From contig CANQGT010000010.1 of NCBI GenBank assembly GCA_947623505.1, positions 1-64,000 of the forward strand: a DNA stretch of 64,000 nucleotides, in the 5' to 3' direction. A program made the translations under genes and the position numbers. Shown here one piece after another: positions 4,798 through 60,960 of the stretch. This DNA is from an uncultured Clostridia bacterium (lineage in GTDB: Bacteria; Bacillota; Clostridia; Oscillospirales; Acutalibacteraceae). Below the pieces are notes generated by a model that saw only the letters and a list, made by a program, of their open reading frames with translations, made no database searches and had not been told where the DNA came from. Numbering within the stretch: the first letter of the stretch is position 1; each line of letters starts with the position of its first letter.

Positions 4798-5508
4798 TCA
4801 ATCTTTAAGAAGTTCCGCTATCCTTTTTTCATAAGCCTCTTTTTCAAACGGAAATTCAACGGGGGAATATTCGCCGTCCGCCAAAGAAATAAGATAATCG
4901 GTAAACGGCGGGTTTAGAGGAAGCACGGGGCCGATAAGATAAGTGGCGAACAGGTTGTTATAATGTATCCCCTCAATGTCGGTGTCTTTATTCATTCCGC
5001 AGCCTTTCAGCATTTTTAAGAACGGATGCGGCAGTTCGCCGCGGCTGAGGCTCAAAAGATTTTTAAAGCCCGTTATCTTCATACCGTCAAATTCGCCTAC
5101 CGAGCAGTCGTTGTATCTGAGCCGCGAAAACTGCTCCGCGTGATAGGGGAAAAATCCGAGGCACTCCGTTTTGCCCGAATCGGTGTGCTCAATATATTCT
5201 CCGAAGAGCTCGAACGCGTTGCCCGTGGCAAGTATTATCCCGCCGCCGTCAATGCGTTCTTTTATTTTATCCGAATACGCACGCAGTTTCTCAAGCTCGA
5301 TTATCTGGTGCTTTTCCTGGCAGGGGCCTATCAGAAGAAAATCGACCTCGTTTTCGATAAAATACGGCTCGTCAAAAAGCGTTGTTTTAACGGTTTCGGT
5401 TTCATAACCCGCCGCTTTCAGCTTTTTTTCAAGATATTCCGCGTTGCCGAGATCTCCGAAAAGATTGTTAAATTCGGGATAGAGCAGTTCGATAGTCATT
5501 TTTTTCAT
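4798..5508 (-). CDS. gatD: GatD-like glutamine amidotransferase subunit lacking the catalytic Cys and His
   Basis: This 236-residue protein has the GATase1 fold signature of GatD, the glutaminase partner of MurT (LLYPEFNNLFGDLGN start; ATYLIGPVLPLNP near the end). MurT/GatD normally amidates the D-glutamate of lipid II using ammonia from glutamine. Here the nucleophile region reads ATGNAFELFG where active GatD has a CGGYQ-type elbow, placing Gly96 where the cysteine should be. The histidine of the usual TYLHGP motif is Ile192. Glutaminase activity is therefore doubtful. It overlaps murT by 4 bases (ATGA), so the two are probably translationally coupled. It may be a structural partner or a paralogue with a new role. 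Confidence 0.75.
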   Translation of the reverse strand: MKKMTIELLYPEFNNLFGDLGNAEYLEKKLKAAGYETETVKTTLFDEPYFIENEVDFLLIGPCQEKHQIIELEKLRAYSDKIKERIDGGGIILATGNAFELFGEYIEHTDSGKTECLGFFPYHAEQFSRLRYNDCSVGEFDGMKITGFKNLLSLSRGELPHPFLKMLKGCGMNKDTDIEGIHYNNLFATYLIGPVLPLNPPFTDYLISLADGEYSPVEFPFEKEAYEKRIAELLKD

Positions 5509-6884
5509 TGCTTGCCGTCCTTTTCCGCCGCAGCCTTTTTTATCATATCAACTATTCTTACGGCATAGAGTTCAAAATAAATCACGGTAGGTTTTTCCGT
5601 TGAAATGTTTTCGCACAGCTCGCCGCAAAGGCGTGAATAATCCTCAAACAGCTTCATCTTGCCGGTATCAACTCCGGTAAGAAACAGCTTTAGCGCCAAA
5701 TCATAGCACCTTGTGCCGCCGATATATATGTTTTCAACGCTGTCCGAAAGCAGAGGCGAAAAGTCGGTATCGTAAAGCCAGGATATATCCTCATGGCCGT
5801 GCTTTTTGTCGTTTGAATCCGTTATCAGAAGCACAACGTCTTTCTTACCTTCGGACGCGGCAAGATATTTCAGGCTTTGGGAGCAGGAAATCGGATTTTG
5901 GTTTTTTGAAAGCATAGTTATAAGCTCGTATCCGCCGTACCTTTTATCAATGAACCTGCCCGTTTTCGCCGCCACATTTTCAATGCCGCTGCTTATGGTT
6001 TCAAGGTCTATGCCGATAAGGCGGCATAGAGCGCACGCGCCGGTGATATTGAAAACATTGAAAAAGTTTTCTTTCTGAAAGGGGAGAACAGCCGTTTTTC
6101 CGTCGCCGTCGTGAAAAATGAAAGTGCCGTTTTCAAAATCAACGTCCGTGGCGGTGTAAACGCTTTCGTCCATTTTAAAGCCGCATTCGGGGCAGTGAGG
6201 CACGCCTATGTGATTATAATGGTAATACTCGTATTCTAATATATGCCCGCATTTTGGGCAGGCTGTAATATCGCACACGGTGTCAACGCACCTGTCGGTG
6301 CTTTTTTCCGTTTTGCCCACGGAATAATAGATGCGCCTGCATTTTCCCTCGCCCAAAAGGCCGGATATAGCGTCGTTTCCGTTGAGCACAAGCGTTGTTT
6401 TTTCCGAAAGATTGTCGTTTATTTTGTCAAATATAAATCCGCTGTGTCCGTTTCTTTTTATCGAATCGCGAAACAGATTTGTGCAAAGAATATAATCGGG
6501 CGTAAATTTTGTGTATATATATCCGGAGGAACGCTCGTCCACCTCCAAAACGGCAACGTCGGACTTTACTTTGCCCGAAAGCGTGCAGTCGGCTACAAGC
6601 GCCGAGGCTATGCCTGACGCCATATTCGAGCCCTTTGAATTGTTTACAACGGTTTTGCCGCTGCCGCGTATTATATGCGTTATCAGGTTTGAAGTGCTTG
6701 TCTTTCCGTTCGTTCCCGTAACGCAAACTGTTATGGGCGGCATTTTAAATCTCGCGAGCGCGTCCGGGCAGAGCTTTAGCATTATTGCCCCCGGGGTATT
6801 CGTGCCTCTCTTAAACAGCCTGTCCAGCAAAAATGCCGAAATTTTGCCTATTATAACCGCCGCGAGAAATCTTAATTTTCCCAT
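5505..6884 (-). CDS. murT: MurT-like Mur ligase family protein
   Basis: The 459-residue product has the Mur ligase ATP-binding loop GTNGKTST (57-64), the four-cysteine zinc ribbon typical of MurT (C209, C212, C231, C234) and a C-terminal DUF1727-type domain with DSNDKKHGHEDISWLYD. MurT binds and activates the glutamate carboxylate of lipid II for amidation. I start at ATG 6884, preceded by AGGTG; an upstream in-frame extension of 41 residues lacks a comparable site. It overlaps the gatD-like gene. Because that partner has lost its catalytic residues, the ammonia source of this pair is uncertain. Confidence 0.8.
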   Translation of the reverse strand: MGKLRFLAAVIIGKISAFLLDRLFKRGTNTPGAIMLKLCPDALARFKMPPITVCVTGTNGKTSTSNLITHIIRGSGKTVVNNSKGSNMASGIASALVADCTLSGKVKSDVAVLEVDERSSGYIYTKFTPDYILCTNLFRDSIKRNGHSGFIFDKINDNLSEKTTLVLNGNDAISGLLGEGKCRRIYYSVGKTEKSTDRCVDTVCDITACPKCGHILEYEYYHYNHIGVPHCPECGFKMDESVYTATDVDFENGTFIFHDGDGKTAVLPFQKENFFNVFNITGACALCRLIGIDLETISSGIENVAAKTGRFIDKRYGGYELITMLSKNQNPISCSQSLKYLAASEGKKDVVLLITDSNDKKHGHEDISWLYDTDFSPLLSDSVENIYIGGTRCYDLALKLFLTGVDTGKMKLFEDYSRLCGELCENISTEKPTVIYFELYAVRIVDMIKKAAAEKDGKQ

Positions 6885-53867: not shown

Positions 53868-54341
53868 TTGAAACGAGTTATATTCCTGCTGCTGTCGGCG
53901 GCGGTTATTTTGGCAGGATGTAAAATGAAAACCTACAATCCCATAATAACCGATTTTGACCAACGGGCAACGGTTACGGCAGGGGATTTTTCTTATGAAT
54001 GTAATATCGTGCGGGGGCAGGGAACAGTCACCGTTACGGCTCTTTCCACAAACGCGCGGGGCGCGGTAATTACTTACAACGGTAAAAGCGCAGCTTTCAG
54101 CTATCTCGGTATGGATTATGAAATAGAAAGCTCCGAAATAGATTCCACCAACCCCGCGAAGGCAATATACGAAGCGTTTGAGGCGGTGTGCTCTCAGCCC
54201 GAAAAGGTTTCACGCACAAAGGACGGCTTTAGGTACGACGGAAAAACCGCCCTCGGCGAATTTACTCTGCTTCAAAATGACGATGACAGCTATAAATCGC
54301 TCTTTTTTAAGGACACTGATATAAAAATCATTTTTAAATAA
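53868..54341 (+). CDS. Small lipoprotein of unknown function
   Basis: A 157-residue protein with a lipoprotein signal (lipobox LAGC, Cys18) and a soluble, beta-rich domain of about 135 residues with no motif that I recognise. Start codon TTG 53868 follows a modest CGGA ribosome site. It is 12 bases downstream of nnr, so probably the last gene of the galactosidase-acpS-nnr unit. Confidence 0.75.
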   Translation: MKRVIFLLLSAAVILAGCKMKTYNPIITDFDQRATVTAGDFSYECNIVRGQGTVTVTALSTNARGAVITYNGKSAAFSYLGMDYEIESSEIDSTNPAKAIYEAFEAVCSQPEKVSRTKDGFRYDGKTALGEFTLLQNDDDSYKSLFFKDTDIKIIFK

Positions 54342-54350
54342 TAAATAAAC

Positions 54351-54376
54351 GAGCCGCTCTGTTTCGCAGGCGGCTC
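54351..54376. terminator. Hairpin after the lipoprotein gene
   Basis: A 7-bp stem GAGCCGC / GCGGCTC lies 10 bases past the lipoprotein stop. No strong T run follows on the plus strand. On the minus strand it lies just past a partial copy of the array repeat. Confidence 0.55.
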
Positions 54377-54377
54377 A

Positions 54378-54401
54378 ATGTTTCTGCTGATTTTGATACA
54401 A
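54378..54401 (-). repeat. Array repeat, partial copy
   Basis: Contains the conserved end TTCTGCTGATTTTGATACAA, which on the minus strand begins about 27 bases after the methyltransferase stop codon. The rest of the 88-bp unit is missing. Confidence 0.7.
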
Positions 54402-54427
54402 ACAGAAATTTTTCAAAAAAAAGCAAT

Positions 54428-55177
54428 CTATACAGCTTTTTTACAACGAAAAAACACAAAATCAGGACGGTGTATCGTTCCGCCAAACATATCCGGATAC
54501 TGCATTCTCATTTCATCAGATATATGTGATTCCTGACATTCTTCGATGATAAAACCGGATTTGATTATCGAATTCAGCAGACCGGAAAAGGTTCTATGGT
54601 AAAGTTCATAATCATCCACTACCCATTTTATTTTTCTGCGCCCTTCCACGAAATAGTTGCTGATATTTGCATATAAACGCTCTCCTGATTCCGAGCGGGT
54701 GTATCTGTCATAGGTTCCGTCATATGCCGTTGCCATTGGATGGGACATACTGAAAACAAGTTGTGCCTCTTCTTTCATCAACATGGAAATGTTCTTCAAT
54801 AGAGTATCAAAATCTTCAACATAATCAAATACCAAAGAACTTGTGACCAGATCAAACTGCCTACCTATATGGTCAATATCTTCCATTGCCATCTGTTGAT
54901 AGGTAATATTACATGCCTTGTTGTGTGCTCTTGCGTATTCCAGCATTTTTTCGGAAATATCAATTCCCAGAACTGACGTGGCACCCATTTCGGAATACTG
55001 TTTTGCATGCTGCCCCATGCCGCAGCCGATATCCAAAATCTCTTTTCCTTGCAGGTCAGGAAGCATGGAAAGAAGAATAGGAGTTTCAATACAATCATTA
55101 AAATTGATTTTGTTACTCCTGATCTTCTCAAAGTTCTCAAAGAAAACCTCATTGTCGTAGATGTTTTGTTTTGACAT
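54428..55177 (-). CDS. Class I SAM-dependent methyltransferase
   Basis: A 249-residue methyltransferase with motif I DIGCGMGQHAKQYSEMG, the acidic VLGIDIS and a YQQMAMEDI segment. The acceptor is unknown; small molecules are common targets in this family. I start at ATG 55177 with GGAGG upstream; the frame extends 31 codons further. It is the leftmost gene of the minus-strand single-gene array. The DNA looks more A/T-rich than the housekeeping genes nearby, consistent with acquisition. Confidence 0.85.
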   Translation of the reverse strand: MSKQNIYDNEVFFENFEKIRSNKINFNDCIETPILLSMLPDLQGKEILDIGCGMGQHAKQYSEMGATSVLGIDISEKMLEYARAHNKACNITYQQMAMEDIDHIGRQFDLVTSSLVFDYVEDFDTLLKNISMLMKEEAQLVFSMSHPMATAYDGTYDRYTRSESGERLYANISNYFVEGRRKIKWVVDDYELYHRTFSGLLNSIIKSGFIIEECQESHISDEMRMQYPDMFGGTIHRPDFVFFRCKKAV

Positions 55178-55296
55178 ACCTATATCCTCCTTAATCCGTC
55201 GATTTACCGGACTCAACCCACGATTTCTAATATATTTAATCAAAAATGGGAATAAAGCCACTCTCCGCATACACTTTACACCGCAAGCGAAAACTT

Positions 55297-55384
55297 ACAC
55301 CGCATAGGCGCGCTTTTGGGTTTTTCTCTGCCTTGTATCAAACTCTGCAAGATTATATCTATGTTTCTGCCGATTTTGATACAA
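55297..55384 (-). repeat. Array repeat, full 88-bp copy
   Basis: Runs from ACACCGCATAGGCGCGC to TTTTGATACAA. Its right part is an inverted repeat (TTGTATCAAA ... TTTGATACAA, 55333-55384) with a smaller AGAT/ATCT palindrome inside. It lies 51 bases past the NUDIX stop codon on the minus strand. Confidence 0.85.
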
Positions 55385-55434
55385 AAATTGGCAACGAGAG
55401 ATTTAATTTCAGATCATTTGCGCGCATCGAGATG

Positions 55435-55899
55435 TTAGATCAGGTATAGAGAATACGGCGCATCTTTCATATTTCCCTCATAATCTCGATATTGCAGCCC
55501 ATACCGTTTGAATGTTGCACTTTCAATCAACTTTTTCGTGAGTTCGGGAACATCATCTCTTGATAAAGCATCTTCTATATTCAACCATATAACTTCACTG
55601 TTCTCATCATTATCCGACCGCGGTTTGCCGGAAATATAATCTGCATAAAACACAATGTACCAGTCATGCATATTAAAGCGAATGCCTATTATATGAAGCG
55701 GTTCTATTTCTATGTTTGTTTCTTCCATATATTCGCGCTTCAGTACCTGTTGAGGTGTTTCACCATAATTCACATAACCGCCCGGTATGATCAACATACC
55801 CTTTCCGTTACCGTATGTATGACGAACAAGCAACACCTGATTATCCTTTATCACAACGCCTGCAACGCTTTGTCCCCAATTTGTATTTTTGTTATTCAT
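55435..55899 (-). CDS. NUDIX hydrolase
   Basis: A 154-residue NUDIX protein. The Nudix box is GGYVNYGETPQQVLKREY followed by MEETNI, with all metal-binding glutamates. The family hydrolyses nucleoside diphosphates linked to another moiety; the substrate is not predictable here. AGGAGA precedes the ATG directly next to a partial array repeat. Confidence 0.88.
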   Translation of the reverse strand: MNNKNTNWGQSVAGVVIKDNQVLLVRHTYGNGKGMLIIPGGYVNYGETPQQVLKREYMEETNIEIEPLHIIGIRFNMHDWYIVFYADYISGKPRSDNDENSEVIWLNIEDALSRDDVPELTKKLIESATFKRYGLQYRDYEGNMKDAPYSLYLI

Positions 55900-55912
55900 A
55901 GTAGGTCTCCTT

Positions 55913-55931
55913 TTTCTGCCGATTTTGATAC
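55913..55931 (-). repeat. Array repeat, partial copy
   Basis: TTTCTGCCGATTTTGATAC, the conserved end only, beginning about 27 bases after the reductase-like stop codon on the minus strand and abutting the ribosome site of the NUDIX gene. Confidence 0.7.
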
Positions 55932-55957
55932 GGCGGGGGAAATCATATTTTTCCGGA

Positions 55958-56638
55958 TCAATTGATCACTTTATATCTCATACGAACATATGAATCACAA
56001 AGCGGTGTGCATTCGATAAGTTTCAACGCGCTTAATCCGGGAAGCTCGCTTTCGCAAGTCAGAGAATGCCCGTCTATCAGCGTGGAAGTGTCTTTTCCGC
56101 CGATAAGAATCGGCGCAACGATGATATCAACATAATCAAGCAGCTTTTCTCTTAAAAGCAATTCGTTTACAGTTCCGCCGGATTGTATTGTCAACCGTTC
56201 ACATCCGAAATCCGATTTCAGCCGCTTAAACGCTTCCCGCAGGGATACTCGCTCCTGTGCAAGGATATGCAGATTATTTTCCTCAACGGAAAACGCGGGA
56301 TGATCCTTATTTGAAGTAATCAACACACATTCTTTCGCCAAGGCGCAGAAATAACGAATCCCATGCGCTGTCAGGTGGCTGTTGTCTAAAAGAACAAAAG
56401 ATACCGGGGTTTTCTCGGGCATCTCTTTTTGATTTACGCCTACTTTTGCCTGAACTCTGCCGGTATTGAATGACCAGAGATCGGTTGTCCTCTCAATTTC
56501 GTAGTACTGATGCAGCCCTTCCTTCACTCCGTCTATCTTTGGGAAGTCTTTATCTACATCCATTTCGTCCGTAGAGCCGGTACTGATCTTCCCGTCTAAA
56601 GACATTAACAAAAATAAAGTGGTTATCGGTCTGTCCAT
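55958..56638 (-). CDS. RibD C-terminal / dihydrofolate-reductase-like protein
   Basis: A 226-residue protein of the RibD_C fold. N-terminal FLLMSLDGKIS and the nucleotide-binding stretch LTIQSGGTVNELLLREKLLDYVDI followed by APILIGG are characteristic. Free-standing members reduce pteridine- or pyrimidine-like compounds with NAD(P)H. No riboflavin gene is nearby, so it is better read as an accessory reductase of the array. Confidence 0.85.
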   Translation of the reverse strand: MDRPITTLFLLMSLDGKISTGSTDEMDVDKDFPKIDGVKEGLHQYYEIERTTDLWSFNTGRVQAKVGVNQKEMPEKTPVSFVLLDNSHLTAHGIRYFCALAKECVLITSNKDHPAFSVEENNLHILAQERVSLREAFKRLKSDFGCERLTIQSGGTVNELLLREKLLDYVDIIVAPILIGGKDTSTLIDGHSLTCESELPGLSALKLIECTPLCDSYVRMRYKVIN

Positions 56639-56765
56639 TAGTTATCCTCCTCATTACAGATTAGCCGAGTGAACATGCTCGGTTTTAATAAATCCTATCA
56701 CAAAAATATGAGTAAATCTACCGATATAAGCCCTCGGTACATAATTTATACCTCAAGTAAAAACT

Positions 56766-56853
56766 ACACCGCAAAGGCGCACTTTTGGGCTTTTCTCGGC
56801 GTTGTATCAAACTCTGCAAGATTATATCTATGTTCCTGCTGATTTTAATACAA
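56766..56853 (-). repeat. Array repeat, full 88-bp copy
   Basis: ACACCGCAAAGGCGCAC to TTTTAATACAA, exactly the same length as the copy at 55297-55384. It carries the TTGTATCAAA inverted repeat and begins about 50 bases past the stop codon of the next NUDIX gene on the minus strand. Confidence 0.85.
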
Positions 56854-56902
56854 TGTTTATTTATCAATCGCAATGCAGTTATTCGCTCAAAAATTCGAGC
56901 TG

Positions 56903-57346
56903 TCATGATAGGAACGCAGGCAAAAATCCCCGTTTCTTGGCTTCATTTATTAAATGCGGTTGGATATCAGGATATGTCCATCTTTCCGGTAGTTCATCCA
57001 GCATCGCGATTTCCTCAATTTCACTATGTAACTCTTTTTCAAAAGACTCGATATCGGCAAAAAACAACATACCGAAGGTTTCCTCGCCATCAAAATTATC
57101 AGGTGCTGTAACAGAATACACGCAAATAGGTTTTATTTCAAATTTTATAGCGCCGGTTTCTTCATAGAGTTCCCTCTTCGCTGTATCGATAATATTTTCT
57201 CCCGGTTCCCTATGACCTCCGGGGATTTCCCATGTATCTCTATCTTTATGCTTGCAGAAAATGTACTGACCCTGTGCCTTGGATATAATAACTGCAAACT
57301 TAAGCAATTCATCATCTACGCTTTCATAAAATTTAACCTCTGTCAT
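56903..57346 (-). CDS. NUDIX hydrolase
   Basis: A 147-residue NUDIX protein with the box GGHREPGENIIDTAKREL followed by YEETGA. It starts at ATG 57346 after AGGAGG; ten more codons are open upstream. The flanking CKHKDRDTWEIPGGH region resembles 8-oxo-dGTP diphosphatase-type enzymes, but the substrate remains open. Single-gene unit of the array. Confidence 0.87.
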   Translation of the reverse strand: MTEVKFYESVDDELLKFAVIISKAQGQYIFCKHKDRDTWEIPGGHREPGENIIDTAKRELYEETGAIKFEIKPICVYSVTAPDNFDGEETFGMLFFADIESFEKELHSEIEEIAMLDELPERWTYPDIQPHLINEAKKRGFLPAFLS

Positions 57347-57427
57347 CCAAGCCTTTCCTCCTACCTCTTCTTTCATTTGTTACGGTCGAACGTTTCAACG
57401 TGAAAACCTATACCCAAACGGCAGCAT

Positions 57428-57515
57428 ACACCGCAAAGGCGCACTTTTGGAGGCTTTCCTCCGCCTCGTATCAAATTCTGCAAGATCATATATGTATTTC
57501 GCGATTTTGATACAA
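57428..57515 (-). repeat. Array repeat, full 88-bp copy
   Basis: ACACCGCAAAGGCGCAC to TTTTGATACAA. Again exactly 88 bp although the internal sequence differs from the other copies at several positions. It ends 44 bases short of the third NUDIX stop codon. Confidence 0.85.
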
Positions 57516-57558
57516 GAGGAAATTTTAGTCTCTGTTGCCCGCCTTGATAAATGCAGAT

Positions 57559-58005
57559 TTATACATTTTCAAGCAGCCGACAGCGCAATTCATATAAGGC
57601 TGTTTTGTTTGAATCCCAAGTCAGGCGCGCCATAGCGTCCTCATAACTCAGCCACTCGCTGCCGATGTGTTCATGGGAAAGCTTTATGTCCGAAACACAT
57701 TCAAACGCGAAGTTATATTCGGGAATAACATAGGTGTTCTTTGGCCAATATTTCCGATGCCTTTCCGCGATAACATCCACGGGAAGATATGCCATGGATG
57801 TCAGCTCTATAATACCGTTTGTTTTTATTCCGGCTTCTTCCGAAATTTCTCTTACCGCCGCCTCCGTCGGCGTTTCATCTTCTTCACCGCCGCCGGCAAC
57901 AAACTGCCACTGATCAAAATCCGAGCGACGCAAAACACAAAACTGCATCTCTCCCGACGCTGTTTTCCTGTAAGGAATCGCCAATATCTGAAACGCTGCT
58001 CTCAT
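57559..58005 (-). CDS. NUDIX hydrolase, dihydroneopterin-triphosphatase-like
   Basis: A 148-residue NUDIX protein. The box AGGGEEDETPTEAAVREI followed by SEEAGI is complete, and the C-terminal EWLSYEDAMARLTWDSNKTALYEL resembles NudB, which acts on dihydroneopterin triphosphate. GGAGG lies before the ATG. It is one of three different NUDIX genes in the array, too dissimilar to be recent duplicates. Confidence 0.87.
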   Translation of the reverse strand: MRAAFQILAIPYRKTASGEMQFCVLRRSDFDQWQFVAGGGEEDETPTEAAVREISEEAGIKTNGIIELTSMAYLPVDVIAERHRKYWPKNTYVIPEYNFAFECVSDIKLSHEHIGSEWLSYEDAMARLTWDSNKTALYELRCRLLENV

Positions 58006-58109
58006 ACTGTAAAACCTCCAAACCCGTTATCTTAAAACGGAAATTTTCTTGATTATAGCGCAAAAATATAAATATATCATAAAAATATTATAAAAGTCAA
58101 CGATAATTA

Positions 58110-58619
58110 TTAGGAAAGCTGAGACAAATCAAAAACATATTCAACAGCAGGGTAGGATCTGCCCGACAGGTTTACGGTGCTGTTGCTCTTTAATTTGCCA
58201 CCCATTTTTTCATAGAATTTTCTTGCGCTCGCGTTTTTCTCAAAAACGCAGAGGCTCATAATTGTGTATCCGCGGCAAACAAGCTTCTTAACGGTGTATT
58301 TAAACAGCGTTGTTCCGATTCCCCATCGCTTTAAATCGGGGCGAACATAGATTTCCCGAATTTCGCAGCCGAGCTTCACACTATCGGTATGACTGCCCGG
58401 CGAAATTCTGCAAAAGCCCACTATATTGCCGTCTGTTTCGGCAACGATAAAAGATGATAACGGGTATTTCATCAGCAGGGCGGACTGCTTCTCCACAGAT
58501 AGAGCATCAAGATATTCATCGTCAACTATTCCGCGATATGCGGCTTGCCAACCCTCAACCTTGATTTTCGCGATTGATTCAATATCGCTTTCTTGCGCAA
58601 ATCGGCATATCATTTTCAC
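58110..58619 (-). CDS. GNAT-family N-acetyltransferase
   Basis: A 169-residue GNAT protein. The acetyl-CoA motif reads IREIYVRPDLKRWGIGTTLF, with SLCVFEKNASARKFYEKMG after it. The start is GTG 58619 six bases after GAGGAG, or ATG two codons later. Substrate unknown. This is the only array gene with no repeat copy on its 3' side: the 104 bases to the NUDIX start hold only A/T-rich sequence. Confidence 0.85.
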   Translation of the reverse strand: MKMICRFAQESDIESIAKIKVEGWQAAYRGIVDDEYLDALSVEKQSALLMKYPLSSFIVAETDGNIVGFCRISPGSHTDSVKLGCEIREIYVRPDLKRWGIGTTLFKYTVKKLVCRGYTIMSLCVFEKNASARKFYEKMGGKLKSNSTVNLSGRSYPAVEYVFDLSQLS

Positions 58620-58643
58620 AAAATCTCCTCATCAATGATTGAA

Positions 58644-58658
58644 CATTTTTTGATACAA
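58644..58658 (-). repeat. Array repeat, remnant
   Basis: Only ATTTTTTGATACAA remains of the conserved end. It lies between two acetyltransferase genes, about 60 bases past the stop of the upstream one. Weak on its own, supported by its position. Confidence 0.45.
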
Positions 58659-58716
58659 AAAGAAAAGCATATTTCATTTCTTTATTAATTAGTCGAACGG
58701 AAAAGTTATTCTTGTT

Positions 58717-59151
58717 TCACAGCTTTTTACTGAAACAGATAATACGATTTGCCTCCGCAAAGCCCATTTTTAGATGAAATTTCAAGCTGTCGTCATTATT
58801 TATTTCACAATCGCTTGCAAATTCCGCACAGCCTTTGGCTTTTGCCCAATTCTGACATTCGATCAAAAGCCGAGACGCAAATCCCGAACGGCGAAATTCC
58901 TCCCGCACAAAAATGCCTTCCAAATACCCCACAGGGCTTGTTTCAGTGCCCTCTACATAGTCATACCGAAGCTGACATTGCGCAAATCCAACGGGCAAAT
59001 TATCCTGATACGCGATAAAGCAGGCGGCATTATCACTGCCTAACAAATCCGTGAATGAATCCGTCAATTCCGAAATCGTACTGTCCCACATTTTAACGGC
59101 TAACTCCGCCAAATCTGCCGCCTCTGATTTTGAGGCTCGTTTGATTACCAT
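58717..59151 (-). CDS. GNAT acetyltransferase resembling aminoglycoside 6'-N-acetyltransferases
   Basis: A 144-residue GNAT protein. The stretch YVEGTETSPVGYLEGIFV, then REEFRRSGFASRLL, ASDCEINNDDSLKFHLKMGF and a closing ICFSKKL follow the AAC(6')-I pattern, in which acetyl-CoA modifies the 6'-amino group of aminoglycosides. It starts at ATG 59151 after AAGGA; the frame extends 23 codons upstream. Resistance is only inferred. It may be a chromosomal relative with another amine substrate. Confidence 0.78.
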   Translation of the reverse strand: MVIKRASKSEAADLAELAVKMWDSTISELTDSFTDLLGSDNAACFIAYQDNLPVGFAQCQLRYDYVEGTETSPVGYLEGIFVREEFRRSGFASRLLIECQNWAKAKGCAEFASDCEINNDDSLKFHLKMGFAEANRIICFSKKL

Positions 59152-59204
59152 TATTCCTTTTCCTCCAAAATCCAAATTTTCATAGTTTAGAAAAGTAACA
59201 AGCC

Positions 59205-59288
59205 ATACCGCAAAACGCACTTTTCAATTTTCCTCTGCCTTATGTAAAACTCCGCAAATTATATCTTGTTTTACCGATTTTGATATAA
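59205..59288 (-). repeat. Array repeat, diverged full copy (84 bp)
   Basis: ATACCGCAAAACGCAC to TTTTGATATAA. Compared with the 88-bp copies, a G-to-A change in one arm (TTATATC) is matched by a C-to-T change in the other (ACATAA), which keeps the pair. Ends 47 bases short of the acetyltransferase stop codon. Confidence 0.75.
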
Positions 59289-59335
59289 GCGGGTGGTTTC
59301 ACGTTGCGTTTTGACCGTTAAAAGCTGTTCTCAAT

Positions 59336-59773
59336 CTAATTAAGCCATTGAATAAAAGCGGTCTTGTCCGAACTGTTATATCCCGCGTTGGCGTAAAACC
59401 GCAAAGTCGCCTCACTTTTTGATCCTGTAAGCAGCATCATTTTATAGCAGTTTTCTCTTTCCGCGATTTTCTTAGCGTAATTTAAACATTCGGTCGCGTA
59501 TCCCTTTTTTCTGAAATCCCTGTGAGTAACAACGTTTTCAACCAAAGCGTAAGGCCTTATATTTCTTGTCAGATTGGGGATTATTACGCATACGCAGGAA
59601 GAAACGATCTTTCCGCCGATTTCTTCAACGATAATATGATGATTTTTATCATTGATAATCTCTTTCCATGTATTTTTCAAATGCTCCGTAATTTCGGGGA
59701 CGGAATCCTCGTGCAGAAATAAATACAATTCCAACAGTTCCCGCAATTCGTTTTCTCTGATTTCTCTTACCAT
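59336..59773 (-). CDS. GNAT-family N-acetyltransferase
   Basis: A 145-residue GNAT protein: acetyl-CoA motif VENVVTHRDFRKKGYATECL and the closing SEATLRFYANAGYN. It starts at ATG 59773 after GAGGTG; 16 further codons are open upstream. Substrate unknown. It is the rightmost clear single-gene unit of the array. Confidence 0.85.
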   Translation of the reverse strand: MVREIRENELRELLELYLFLHEDSVPEITEHLKNTWKEIINDKNHHIIVEEIGGKIVSSCVCVIIPNLTRNIRPYALVENVVTHRDFRKKGYATECLNYAKKIAERENCYKMMLLTGSKSEATLRFYANAGYNSSDKTAFIQWLN

Positions 59774-59857
59774 AACACACCTCAATAAATTTGCCTTAAA
59801 GACAATATCCGTAATTCTCAATCGCTCTTATCATAAAAGCTTGAATAAATCTGCCGA

Positions 59858-59875
59858 CTGCCGATTTAGATACAA
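59858..59875 (-). repeat. Array repeat, remnant
   Basis: CTGCCGATTTAGATACAA followed by GCGGGCG, matching the GCGGG that follows the copies at 55913 and 59205. It lies about 170 bases past the stop of the DtxR-family gene. The remaining bases to 60043 show nothing else. Confidence 0.5.
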
Positions 59876-60043
59876 GCGGGCGACTCCTCACTTCCGCGTC
59901 GGGGGGGTGGGGAGTTTTCTGTTTGTTATTTTCGATAAACGGAAATTTATTTCAATTTCGCTTTATAAAACCTTTACGGCTTATGTTATAGGCATCCGCA
60001 TAATGCAGACGATATTATCCGAAATTATAAGGTATATATCGTT

Positions 60044-60415
60044 TTACGGCGTATGCTTTTCAACGTATTCCTTTACCGCTTTGAAGCTTTCGGCGCTTAT
60101 AACGTGCTCTATGCGGCAGGCGTCCTCAACAGCGGTTTGAGAATCAACGCCCAACGCGATAAGCCAGTTTGATATGGTGGTATGCCTTTCATACATCGTT
60201 TGGGCAATTTGCAGCCCGCTGGGCAGCAGGGAGATAAACCCGCTGTTATCTATCTCTATATATCCGTTTTCACGCAGATTTTTCATTGCAACGCTTACGC
60301 TCGGCTTTGAAAATTCAAGCTCATTTACTATGTCTATGGAGCGGACAAGGCCTTTTCTGTTTTTCAGTATAAGTATGGTTTCCAGATAGTTTTCTGCCGA
60401 TTCCTGAATTTTCAT
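60044..60415 (-). CDS. DtxR/MntR-family metal-dependent transcriptional regulator
   Basis: A 123-residue repressor. The winged helix (VRSIDIVNELEFSKPSVSVAMKNLRENGYI) is followed by a metal-binding dimerisation domain with ERHTTISNWLIALGV and EDACRIEHVIS, which supply the His, Glu and Cys ligands. There is no SH3-like domain, as in MntR. Such proteins bind DNA when loaded with Fe2+ or Mn2+. The gene is divergent from feoA-feoA-feoB, whose promoters carry dyad boxes, so iron control of the feo genes is likely. GGAGAT precedes the ATG. Confidence 0.88.
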   Translation of the reverse strand: MKIQESAENYLETILILKNRKGLVRSIDIVNELEFSKPSVSVAMKNLRENGYIEIDNSGFISLLPSGLQIAQTMYERHTTISNWLIALGVDSQTAVEDACRIEHVISAESFKAVKEYVEKHTP

Positions 60416-60540: not shown

Positions 60541-60960
60541 CATCAAATGTAAAAGGGGAGGGGTTTCGCATATGATTTCCTTTATAGCCTCACCTTGAAT
60601 AGGTGAGCCGAAGAGGTGAAAGAACATATCTGAAAAAACAAGCCTTCCCTGTGCAAGGTTATGGCAAGCGAACAACCCCACCTCCTCTCCGCCTTCCCTG
60701 TGTAAGGGAAGGTGTTGAGCGTAAGCGAAACGGAAGGGTTGTGATGTTCTAGTTACAATAGCGTTATTGTAACTAACCAACCCCTCAGTCCGCCTTGCGG
60801 CAGACAGCTCCCCTTGCACAGGTGAGCCGAAGAGGTTAAAGATTGTATCGACAACCCCTCAGTCTGCCTAACGGCAGACATCTCCCCTTGCACAGGTGAG
60901 CCAAAGAGGTTAGAGATTATATTGACAACCCTCACAGGTGAGCCGGATATAAAAAATATA
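60541..60960. repeat. Block of interspersed repeat units, no gene
   Basis: Two 74-bp units begin at CCCCTCAG (60781 and 60855), each with a GTCTGCC/GGCAGAC-type hairpin and CACAGGTGAGCC...GAGGTT. A third, internally deleted unit follows at 60929. To the left are related pieces (GGTGAGCCGAAGAGGT near 60600), the hairpin CCTTCCCT/AGGGAAGG (60692-60712) and a perfect 10-bp inverted repeat AGTTACAATA/TATTGTAACT (60751-60774). The units look like the BOX-type repeats of Firmicutes. Short open frames here are translations of the repeats. Confidence 0.7.

Follow-up and report, generated by a model that had tools for sequence, protein, structure and literature searches.

Single-gene cassettes with attP-like sites of a probable large serine recombinase system in an uncultured Clostridia bacterium

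Introduction

When bacteria trade gene cassettes, the enzymes associated with the process are tyrosine integrases and the sites are attC. Here we analyze an array of eight accessory genes interspersed with copies of a palindromic repeat, found in a 64,000-nucleotide stretch of DNA from an uncultured Clostridia bacterium (positions 1 to 64,000 of contig CANQGT010000010.1, assembly GCA_947623505.1; G000:C10:1-64000 in our numbering). We call this whole stretch the window; the genome from which it comes amounts to 1.82 Mb in 24 contigs. A preliminary description of the window had likened the array to an integron. We put at roughly 0.83 the probability of the account developed here, taken as a whole, in which the array is made up of single-gene cassettes, each with an attP-type site, that are moved by a large serine recombinase (LSR) system.

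Among the closest described systems, phi1207.3 of streptococci carries two LSR genes (orf56 and orf57) at its right end and integrates at a GA dinucleotide in comEC (PMC4260502), and a central GA is reported always to be present in the target of TndX, the recombinase of Tn5397 (PMC4430133). For the A118-family integrase, the contacted attP half-site about the central dinucleotide measures 25 bp, and serine integrases that lack a directionality factor are described in the same source as recombining attP with attB only (PMC3783163). LSRs that use multiple targets are known (PMC10083194). For the phages that will concern us below, the main text of the paper describing the Heliusviridae contains neither the word integrase nor the word recombinase (PMC9226167). 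Two further systems bear on the arrangement of the array. Cis-mobilizable elements (CIMEs) are non-autonomous units that retain att sites and stack, by accretion, through site-specific entry into attR (PMC5704250). The staphylococcal cassette chromosome (SCC, including SCCmec) and the Enterococcus cassette chromosome (ECC) use CcrAB serine recombinases and att sites of about 50 bp with dyad symmetry, and have extra attR sites inside the islands (PMC6222049).

Results

The repeat in the window is built around a site which, read in the sense of the genes, has the form TTGTATCAAAATCnGCAGnAACATA-GA-TATAATCTTGCAGAGTTTGATACAA, an inverted repeat of 25 bp, GA and 25 bp. We refer to its halves as left (L) and right (R), the R half having the sequence GATATAATCTTGCAGAG. 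The halves mirror each other at 19 of 25 positions in each of the two best window copies, and at 20 of 25 in the site of a prophage described below (An172). The site is followed by a conserved tail of about 40 bases (AAAAGTGCGCCTTTGCGGTGTAA...TTGCGGTGTAAAATG) and, beyond it, by a weaker promoter-like stretch (TTTATTCA...TTTTGTGGTA), the mean information across 78 aligned copies falling from 1.48 bits at bases 1-60 to 0.89 at bases 61-120 and 0.50 at bases 121-180. A promoter carried by the cassette would be a guess from this conservation, since a sigma-70 scan of the window alone found 14 candidates where 15.0 were expected from shuffles. The 88-bp element of the preliminary description is a real repeat and not a single unit: the 52-bp palindromic site in it is joined to the first part of a tail that moves together with the following gene.

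Four full copies of the repeat lie on the minus strand of the window, at 55297-55384, 56766-56853 and 57428-57515 (88 bp each) and at 59205-59288 (84 bp). The first two contain full 52-bp attP-like sites (55333-55384, with GA at 55358-55359, and 56802-56853, with GA at 56827-56828) together with tails recognized by their conservation at 55276-55332, upstream of the methyltransferase gene, and at 56746-56801. The core region of the third has diverged, leaving a site 2 bp shorter (50 bp, 57466-57515), and the site of the fourth is decayed (48 bp, 59241-59288). The four partial copies, also on the minus strand, are left half-sites: at 54375-54401, the 3' end of the array, where the core GA at 54375-54376 is followed by a host terminator hairpin; at 55913-55932, truncated and without right half or tail, between the RibD and NUDIX genes; and as remnants recognized by partial matches at 58648-58658 and 59858-59875. 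A copy stands 3' of seven of the eight genes, the exception being the GNAT gene that ends at 58110. These positions bear out those first reported, and they are well beyond what shuffled windows produce: in 20 shuffles, in which single letters were permuted and dinucleotides not preserved, the right half (at most eight mismatches) occurred 0.05 times per shuffle, and the left half (at most seven) and tail (at most six) not at all.

A gene with an inverted repeat on its 3' side, a single orientation and GNAT and NUDIX cargo is the layout of a tyrosine-integrase integron, or of an integrase-less array of one, with divergent attC sites. Two of the four full copies also fold well as single strands (z of -5.95 for 55333-55384 and -3.60 for 56802-56853), and the other two do so weakly (-1.81 and -1.32 for the third and fourth). 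The R boxes of attC are nevertheless missing, with neither GTTRRRY, as had already been observed, nor RYYYAAC in any of the four full copies, and breakpoints fall in the middle of the palindrome, on the central GA or beside it, and not at an end. Moreover, 34 tyrosine-recombinase open reading frames (ORFs) from 20 element-bearing genomes, about one quarter of the matches and searched with no IntI-specific model, have no adjoining full site or tail. We accordingly find an integron of this type very improbable. Near these ORFs there are two one-mismatch 13-mers (in L161 and L165); that in L165, from genome G422, matches the left half at position 1239, 54 bp past a tyrosine recombinase ORF, and is probably a chance occurrence. 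The absence of a tyrosine recombinase from the window extends to its whole contig, the five PF00589 matches in the genome being on contigs C13, C14, C15, C16 and C18. A covariance model of the four copies (R1) has 25 pairs, while RNAalifold on 14 copies returned zero common pairs, so there is no case for a conserved RNA; relatives of the element were found by sequence, using among others a sequence-only model built on 14 copies (R2).

The same half-sites occur at the ends of phages that encode an LSR pair. Of 50,697 phage records searched by BLAST with the element, two matched, both of them Heliusvirales. One of these phages, PV036426, has the R half and tail at one end and the L half (TTGTATCAAAATCAGTAGGAACATCGA|CCCG) at the other, and about 3 kb inside the R end are adjacent genes for proteins of 523 and 588 residues, here LSR1 and LSR2, each with Resolvase, Recombinase and Zn-ribbon domains. 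In the PDB, LSR1 matches, among others, a conjugative-transposon recombinase, TnpX (2mhc, E=6.5e-8), and PhiC31 integrase. A prophage of Anaeromassilibacillus An172 encodes an LSR1 99.8% and an LSR2 96% identical to those of PV036426, and its ends are an R half at G184:C1:117832 and an L half at 173551-173577. The gene that it interrupts (...SEGSIL | EPSCGTGNF) resumes in frame across a single GA, giving the intact site (attB) GGCAGTATTTTA-GA-GCCGTCCTGCGG, and an uninterrupted homologue, MT836012, reads ...TTGTTA-GA-GCCGTCC at the point of integration. The R half is present in five of the six phages or prophages whose LSR1 is at least 84% identical (PV036426, An172, A68, PV036416 and PV036420); the contig of the sixth, G424 (LSR1 93%), stops 2.0 kb past LSR1 and has no R half in it. 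Both element ends were read in PV036426 and An172 only, and PV036416 and PV036420 have no L half within their first 3 kb. At greater distance, PV036449 (70%) and PV036454 (65%) have ends without an R half in the stretches fetched, the latter with a six-mismatch match away from its end, and in LSR loci at 34-65% identity to LSR1 the pattern found no half-site, the element end in many of them possibly lying outside the fetched stretch; three such loci (L304, L297 and L289) give weak R2 matches (E 3e-4 to 0.05). We presume the names An172 and CHK176 to denote chicken and A68 mouse. That the site on its own is an LSR attP seems to us more probable than the account as a whole. The geometry of the site and the LSR-linked phage ends support the earlier suggestion of a new kind of cassette site.

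The genome of the window contains a second array on contig C16, with GNAT, S66 peptidase and APH-fold phosphotransferase genes, and two copies of the repeat in it, outside model building, were matched at E=1.5e-13 and 2.1e-6. The element is present in 4 of 80 genomes of the genus and in 17 of 398 sampled genomes of the family, which fall in 12 of 135 genera. An exact-pattern scan of a species-genome collection, which may omit records of the window's own genome, gave 86 stretches. Sixty-eight of these are contigs of metagenome-assembled genomes (MAGs) titled 'Lapin', which we take to mean rabbit, under the names Oscillospiraceae, Lachnospiraceae, Acetatifactor, Eisenbergiella, Ruminiclostridium or Clostridia. 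Of the 68, 64 have both the right half and the tail under a strict test, and the remaining four were kept on R2 matches. Of the 18 stretches with other titles, four pass this test (L166, L232, L248 and L251) and have the phage version of the site (GAAATAATCTTA...); the other 14 pattern matches are without an R half plus tail and were treated as chance. The database loci retained thus number 72. In a count of 92 sites in their true direction, from which four backward reads were excluded and of which 31 were too close to a contig end, the first ORF after the site has the same sense in 50 of the remaining 61 and the opposite sense in 11.

At the start of an array, host sequence is joined to the right half only (host|GATATAATC...), and at its end the left half only is joined to host sequence (...AACATAGA|host). 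After exclusion of one junction read backwards, the cleaned count comprises 51 distinct 5' flanks, with a GA core in 45, and 18 distinct 3' flanks, with GA in 17, though some flanks are the same locus in related genomes, and the presence of GA in the search motifs makes these shares too high. The 3' flanks favor (G)CC directly after GA, a preference that also fits terminator hairpins, so that hairpins as such need not be the target when an array lies next to a terminator. GA on both sides of the insertions and inverted 25-bp ends could also be read as the marks of a non-autonomous element of the DDE transposon kind, whose terminal inverted repeats would be 25 bp long and whose target duplication would be the 2-bp GA. 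The occurrence of the same ends in phages with an LSR pair, the integration of an LSR relative at GA, and the (G)CC shared by the 3' flanks beyond GA all argue against such an element, which we judge to be unlikely. Copies away from gene ends, which if widespread at unrelated places would have spoken against cassettes, do exist, and these are phage ends or array borders inside host genes, as LSR integration predicts.

Many insertions are in coding sequence, 26 of the 46 distinct 5' flanks with exact GA being the end of an open frame of at least 60 codons. The GA is a codon start in 20 of these 26 against about nine expected, at a p of 7e-6 that is only nominal because some of the insertions are in the same gene family and so are not independent. 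Eight of the 26 interrupted frames have restriction-modification or DNA-methyltransferase domains in Pfam: N6_Mtase in L206, L217, L225 and L231 (three with HsdM_N, and L231 just at the cut-off), MmeI in L212, L251 and L253, and N6_N4_Mtase in L236. Pfam assigns GNAT to L130, a nuclease to L219 and no family to 16, seven of which by eye end like methyltransferase motif I or IV (L121, L125, L132, L187, L188, L244 and L246). Some 'Lapin' elements and phages share positions. The 'Lapin' locus L121 and the An172 phage are inserted at the same codon of the same host gene family (41% amino-acid identity), as are 'Lapin' L212 and the phages A68, PV036416 and PV036420, in a family to which L251, L253 (MmeI domains) and, by eye, L305 also belong. 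Integration of a phage or cassette in DNA-methyltransferase or restriction-modification genes may disable them.

The units between sites are mobile as wholes. An FMN-reductase cassette found at unrelated loci in G178 and G373, which are of different genera, has 94% identity across 695 bp, exactly from GA to GA (L114 8735-9429 and L123 8191-8885). Genome G277 has a locus reading GNAT166-HAD-GNAT161, where G445, of a related species, has GNAT166-NUDIX on one contig and GNAT166-tail|HAD-GNAT161 on another, with an additional cassette for a 124-residue protein following GNAT161. Across these whole-cassette differences the L halves keep with the upstream gene and the R halves with the downstream gene, the switch occurring within ACATAGATAT. 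Whole cassettes have been gained and lost here at one fixed base, as would be expected of a cassette array. In a genus-wide search the stretch beside this array was matched in these two genomes only, and the presence of both GNAT166|NUDIX and GNAT166|HAD in one MAG (G445 contigs C10 and C26; L117 and L115) may reflect live variation, duplication or mixed strains. The position of the copies 3' of genes had also suggested a mobile repeat, such as RUP or BOX, that settles at gene ends and leaves the genes where they are; the joint movement of a gene and both its flanking halves contradicts this, and we give it next to no credence.

Cassettes of the window itself recur elsewhere. One NUDIX cassette in five 'Lapin' loci is the window NUDIX gene at 57559-58005, with nucleotide identity of 87-88% over 462 bp in L194, L216, L238 and L239 and of 80% over 615 bp in L189. 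The window GNAT gene at 58717-59151 is 83% identical to a gene in L198, and that at 59336-59773 is 84% identical to the GNAT cassette of L199. Among 47 cassette proteins scanned, which were hand-picked with phage genes and probable host ORFs excluded, there are, within the 25 commonest of the 58 families matched, 13 GNAT, six NUDIX and three HAD proteins and two each of methyltransferase, S66 peptidase and FMN reductase. Inserts range from a single gene through multi-gene cargo to a whole prophage. L246 has LysR and aldo/keto reductase genes behind an R half within its methyltransferase-like frame, in L247 a C-terminal scrap of LSR1 (64%, 5450-5737) accompanies genes for TetR and a hydrolase, and L234 has a smaller such scrap (60%, 5195-5338) beside a cassette site. 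These inserts hint that cassettes may have arisen from phage ends whose middle was replaced. As a separate observation, L043 2728-3272 (G078), a GNAT gene by eye beside a cassette site, is 84% identical to L013 2640-3184 (G000), where no site was recognized; L043 also has in common with L127 a gene that looks 'HIT-like' by eye.

Pfam confirms the families first assigned to the eight genes, all on the minus strand. In order of position they are a methyltransferase (54428-55177; the ORF is listed to 55270, with the ATG at 55177 likelier), NUDIX (55435-55899), RibD_C (55958-56638), NUDIX (56903-57376), the shared NUDIX at 57559-58005, and three GNAT genes, of which the first (58110-58619) has no site on its 3' side and the second and third are listed to 59220 and 59821, with ATGs at 59151 and 59773 likelier. 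The array is bordered by a small gene without a Pfam match (53868-54341) and, on its 5' side, by a minus-strand gene of the iron-dependent repressor family (60044-60415). In G073 and G078 the host genes matching these two are adjacent and the array is absent. In the close relative G075, where the neighboring gene has 96% amino-acid identity, the junction is as at the 3' border of the window array, which abuts the terminator hairpin of the neighboring gene, but the last cassette is another one (a MarR-family gene), after which the contig stops. An exact 5' border was not found beside the repressor gene; the stretch 59876-60000 resembles by eye the 3' end of a GNAT gene of L043 and is perhaps a decayed ninth cassette. 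Elsewhere in the window, Rfam matched one tRNA and a SAM riboswitch only (the latter RF00162, 45558-45653, 84.6 bits), and dispersed repeats (CCTCAGTCTGCC...CTCCCCTTGCACAGGTGAGCC) at 60589-60925, found also at L015 2740-3160, recur in the genome and are unrelated to the cassette site.

Discussion

In the mechanism that we propose, a cassette would have the order R half, tail, promoter-like stretch, gene and L half, and its substrate form would be a circle with one full L-GA-R site. A phage-type LSR pair, supplied in trans, would insert the circle into a host site with a central GA, in a terminator or a DNA-methyltransferase codon, so that the 5' border would read host-GA-R and the 3' border L-GA-host. 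Later circles might enter at these hybrid borders, or circles might fuse first, and either route would leave full sites between genes.

Several points weigh against this account, beyond the effect of the search motifs on the GA counts. Full sites inside arrays would require an extra step, since serine integrases without a directionality factor are described as performing only attP x attB recombination, and array growth would need an unproven reaction. A few of the 5' flanks (L045, L046, L193 and L199) may be decayed cassette junctions, and 11 of the 61 scorable first ORFs oppose the direction of the element. Comparison of G373 with G422 yielded no clean empty cassette site, the left flank being conserved at 92% and the right flank not syntenic. 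The 'Lapin' half-sites differ from those of the phages at about three (R) and two (L) of 27 positions. Plasmids gave no match to the element, nor to a host flank, and 2.9 million viral contigs gave zero exact pattern matches. Searches of 20 element-bearing genomes, G075 and 398 genomes of the family found no LSR close to the phage pair in a 'Lapin' genome, and no matching LSR turned up in the window's genome or the other element-bearing genomes searched, except in the An172 prophage itself. The LSR search came closest with a 77% fragment in G178 and with a 62% homologue in G158; the contig of the latter stops 0.9 kb past the gene and so does not reach the R end. The scraps in L247 and L234 are the other relatives. 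The window's genome does have a distant LSR (G000:C21:756-2000, L291; 34-40% identical to LSR1 over part of its length), and phages that could serve as helpers with matching sites are seen in other hosts only.

Without an LSR close to the phage pair in its genome, the window array may be at rest now. This lack, and the decay of several window copies, would also suit relics, that is, phage-derived att scars and genes that are spread and reshuffled only by homologous recombination between repeats with no recombinase active. Breakpoints that coincide across 51 distinct 5' flanks, and cassettes that end exactly at GA in unrelated loci, imply that a site-specific reaction has been at work, if not now then until recently, and we think that relics have a slim chance of being the right explanation, if a somewhat better one than a DDE element. 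We thus continue to favor cassettes moved by an LSR system.

A broader proposal is tentative, and on balance we lean against it: that this is a second, independently evolved form of integron-like gene trading, in which Clostridia living in the gut of one animal share, across the whole habitat, a pool of promoter-bearing single-gene cassettes moved by phage-derived LSRs, with GA crossovers and preferred insertion in catalytic DNA-methyltransferase codons, so that uptake can switch off restriction-modification. A working LSR counterpart of the integron would, if real, broaden the targets for cassette-finding tools, account in part for the turnover of accessory genes in gut Clostridia and provide an LSR pair with a GA core and numerous natural targets. 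How single genes gain attP, and why DNA-methyltransferase codons are landing sites, also become testable questions.

Of the known systems, phi1207.3 is alike in its GA core and LSR pair, its LSR being 55% identical to LSR1, and the Heliusvirales phages are closer still, with an LSR 84-100% identical to LSR1, again in a pair, and a 52-bp pseudo-palindromic site at their ends. In contrast to these phage systems, the arrays have their sites around single accessory genes in tandem, with no recombinase gene. Tn5397 and Tn4451 are alike in the GA of the TndX target and in the match of LSR1 to TnpX of Tn4451, and differ in being autonomous, many kb long and equipped with a single LSR; the core used by TnpX is likewise GA.

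The likeness to CIMEs, and to the accretion of integrative and conjugative or integrative and mobilizable elements, lies in att-bounded non-autonomous units in tandem. CIMEs, however, are decayed elements whose genes for integration and transfer have been lost, whereas the units here mostly have one gene, have a common tail and are shared between genera. SCC-type elements are alike in their serine recombinases and dyad-symmetric att sites of about 50 bp, and differ in that they insert in rlmH as islands of at least 20 kb, the present units being single-gene cassettes. The insertion point is not rlmH here, for the window array lies between the 53868-54341 gene and the repressor gene and other arrays have many other host flanks; ccr genes are absent from the eight window genes and, for other cassettes, from the 25 commonest of the 58 families.

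We found no description of such cassettes in the open-licence PMC literature, which does not prove that none exists. Their likeness to integron cassettes is in layout and behavior: single genes in one orientation, a palindromic site for each gene, a cargo rich in GNAT and NUDIX genes, and gain and loss of whole units. To that extent the first impression of an integron-like array stands. Its assignment to the tyrosine-integrase and attC family does not, as the site is like an LSR attP: there are no attC boxes, IntI was not found, the crossover is central, the units have a promoter-like stretch and no common attI platform was seen. The comparison suggests that LSR-type enzymes move single genes between bacteria in the manner of integrons, with a different enzyme and a different site.

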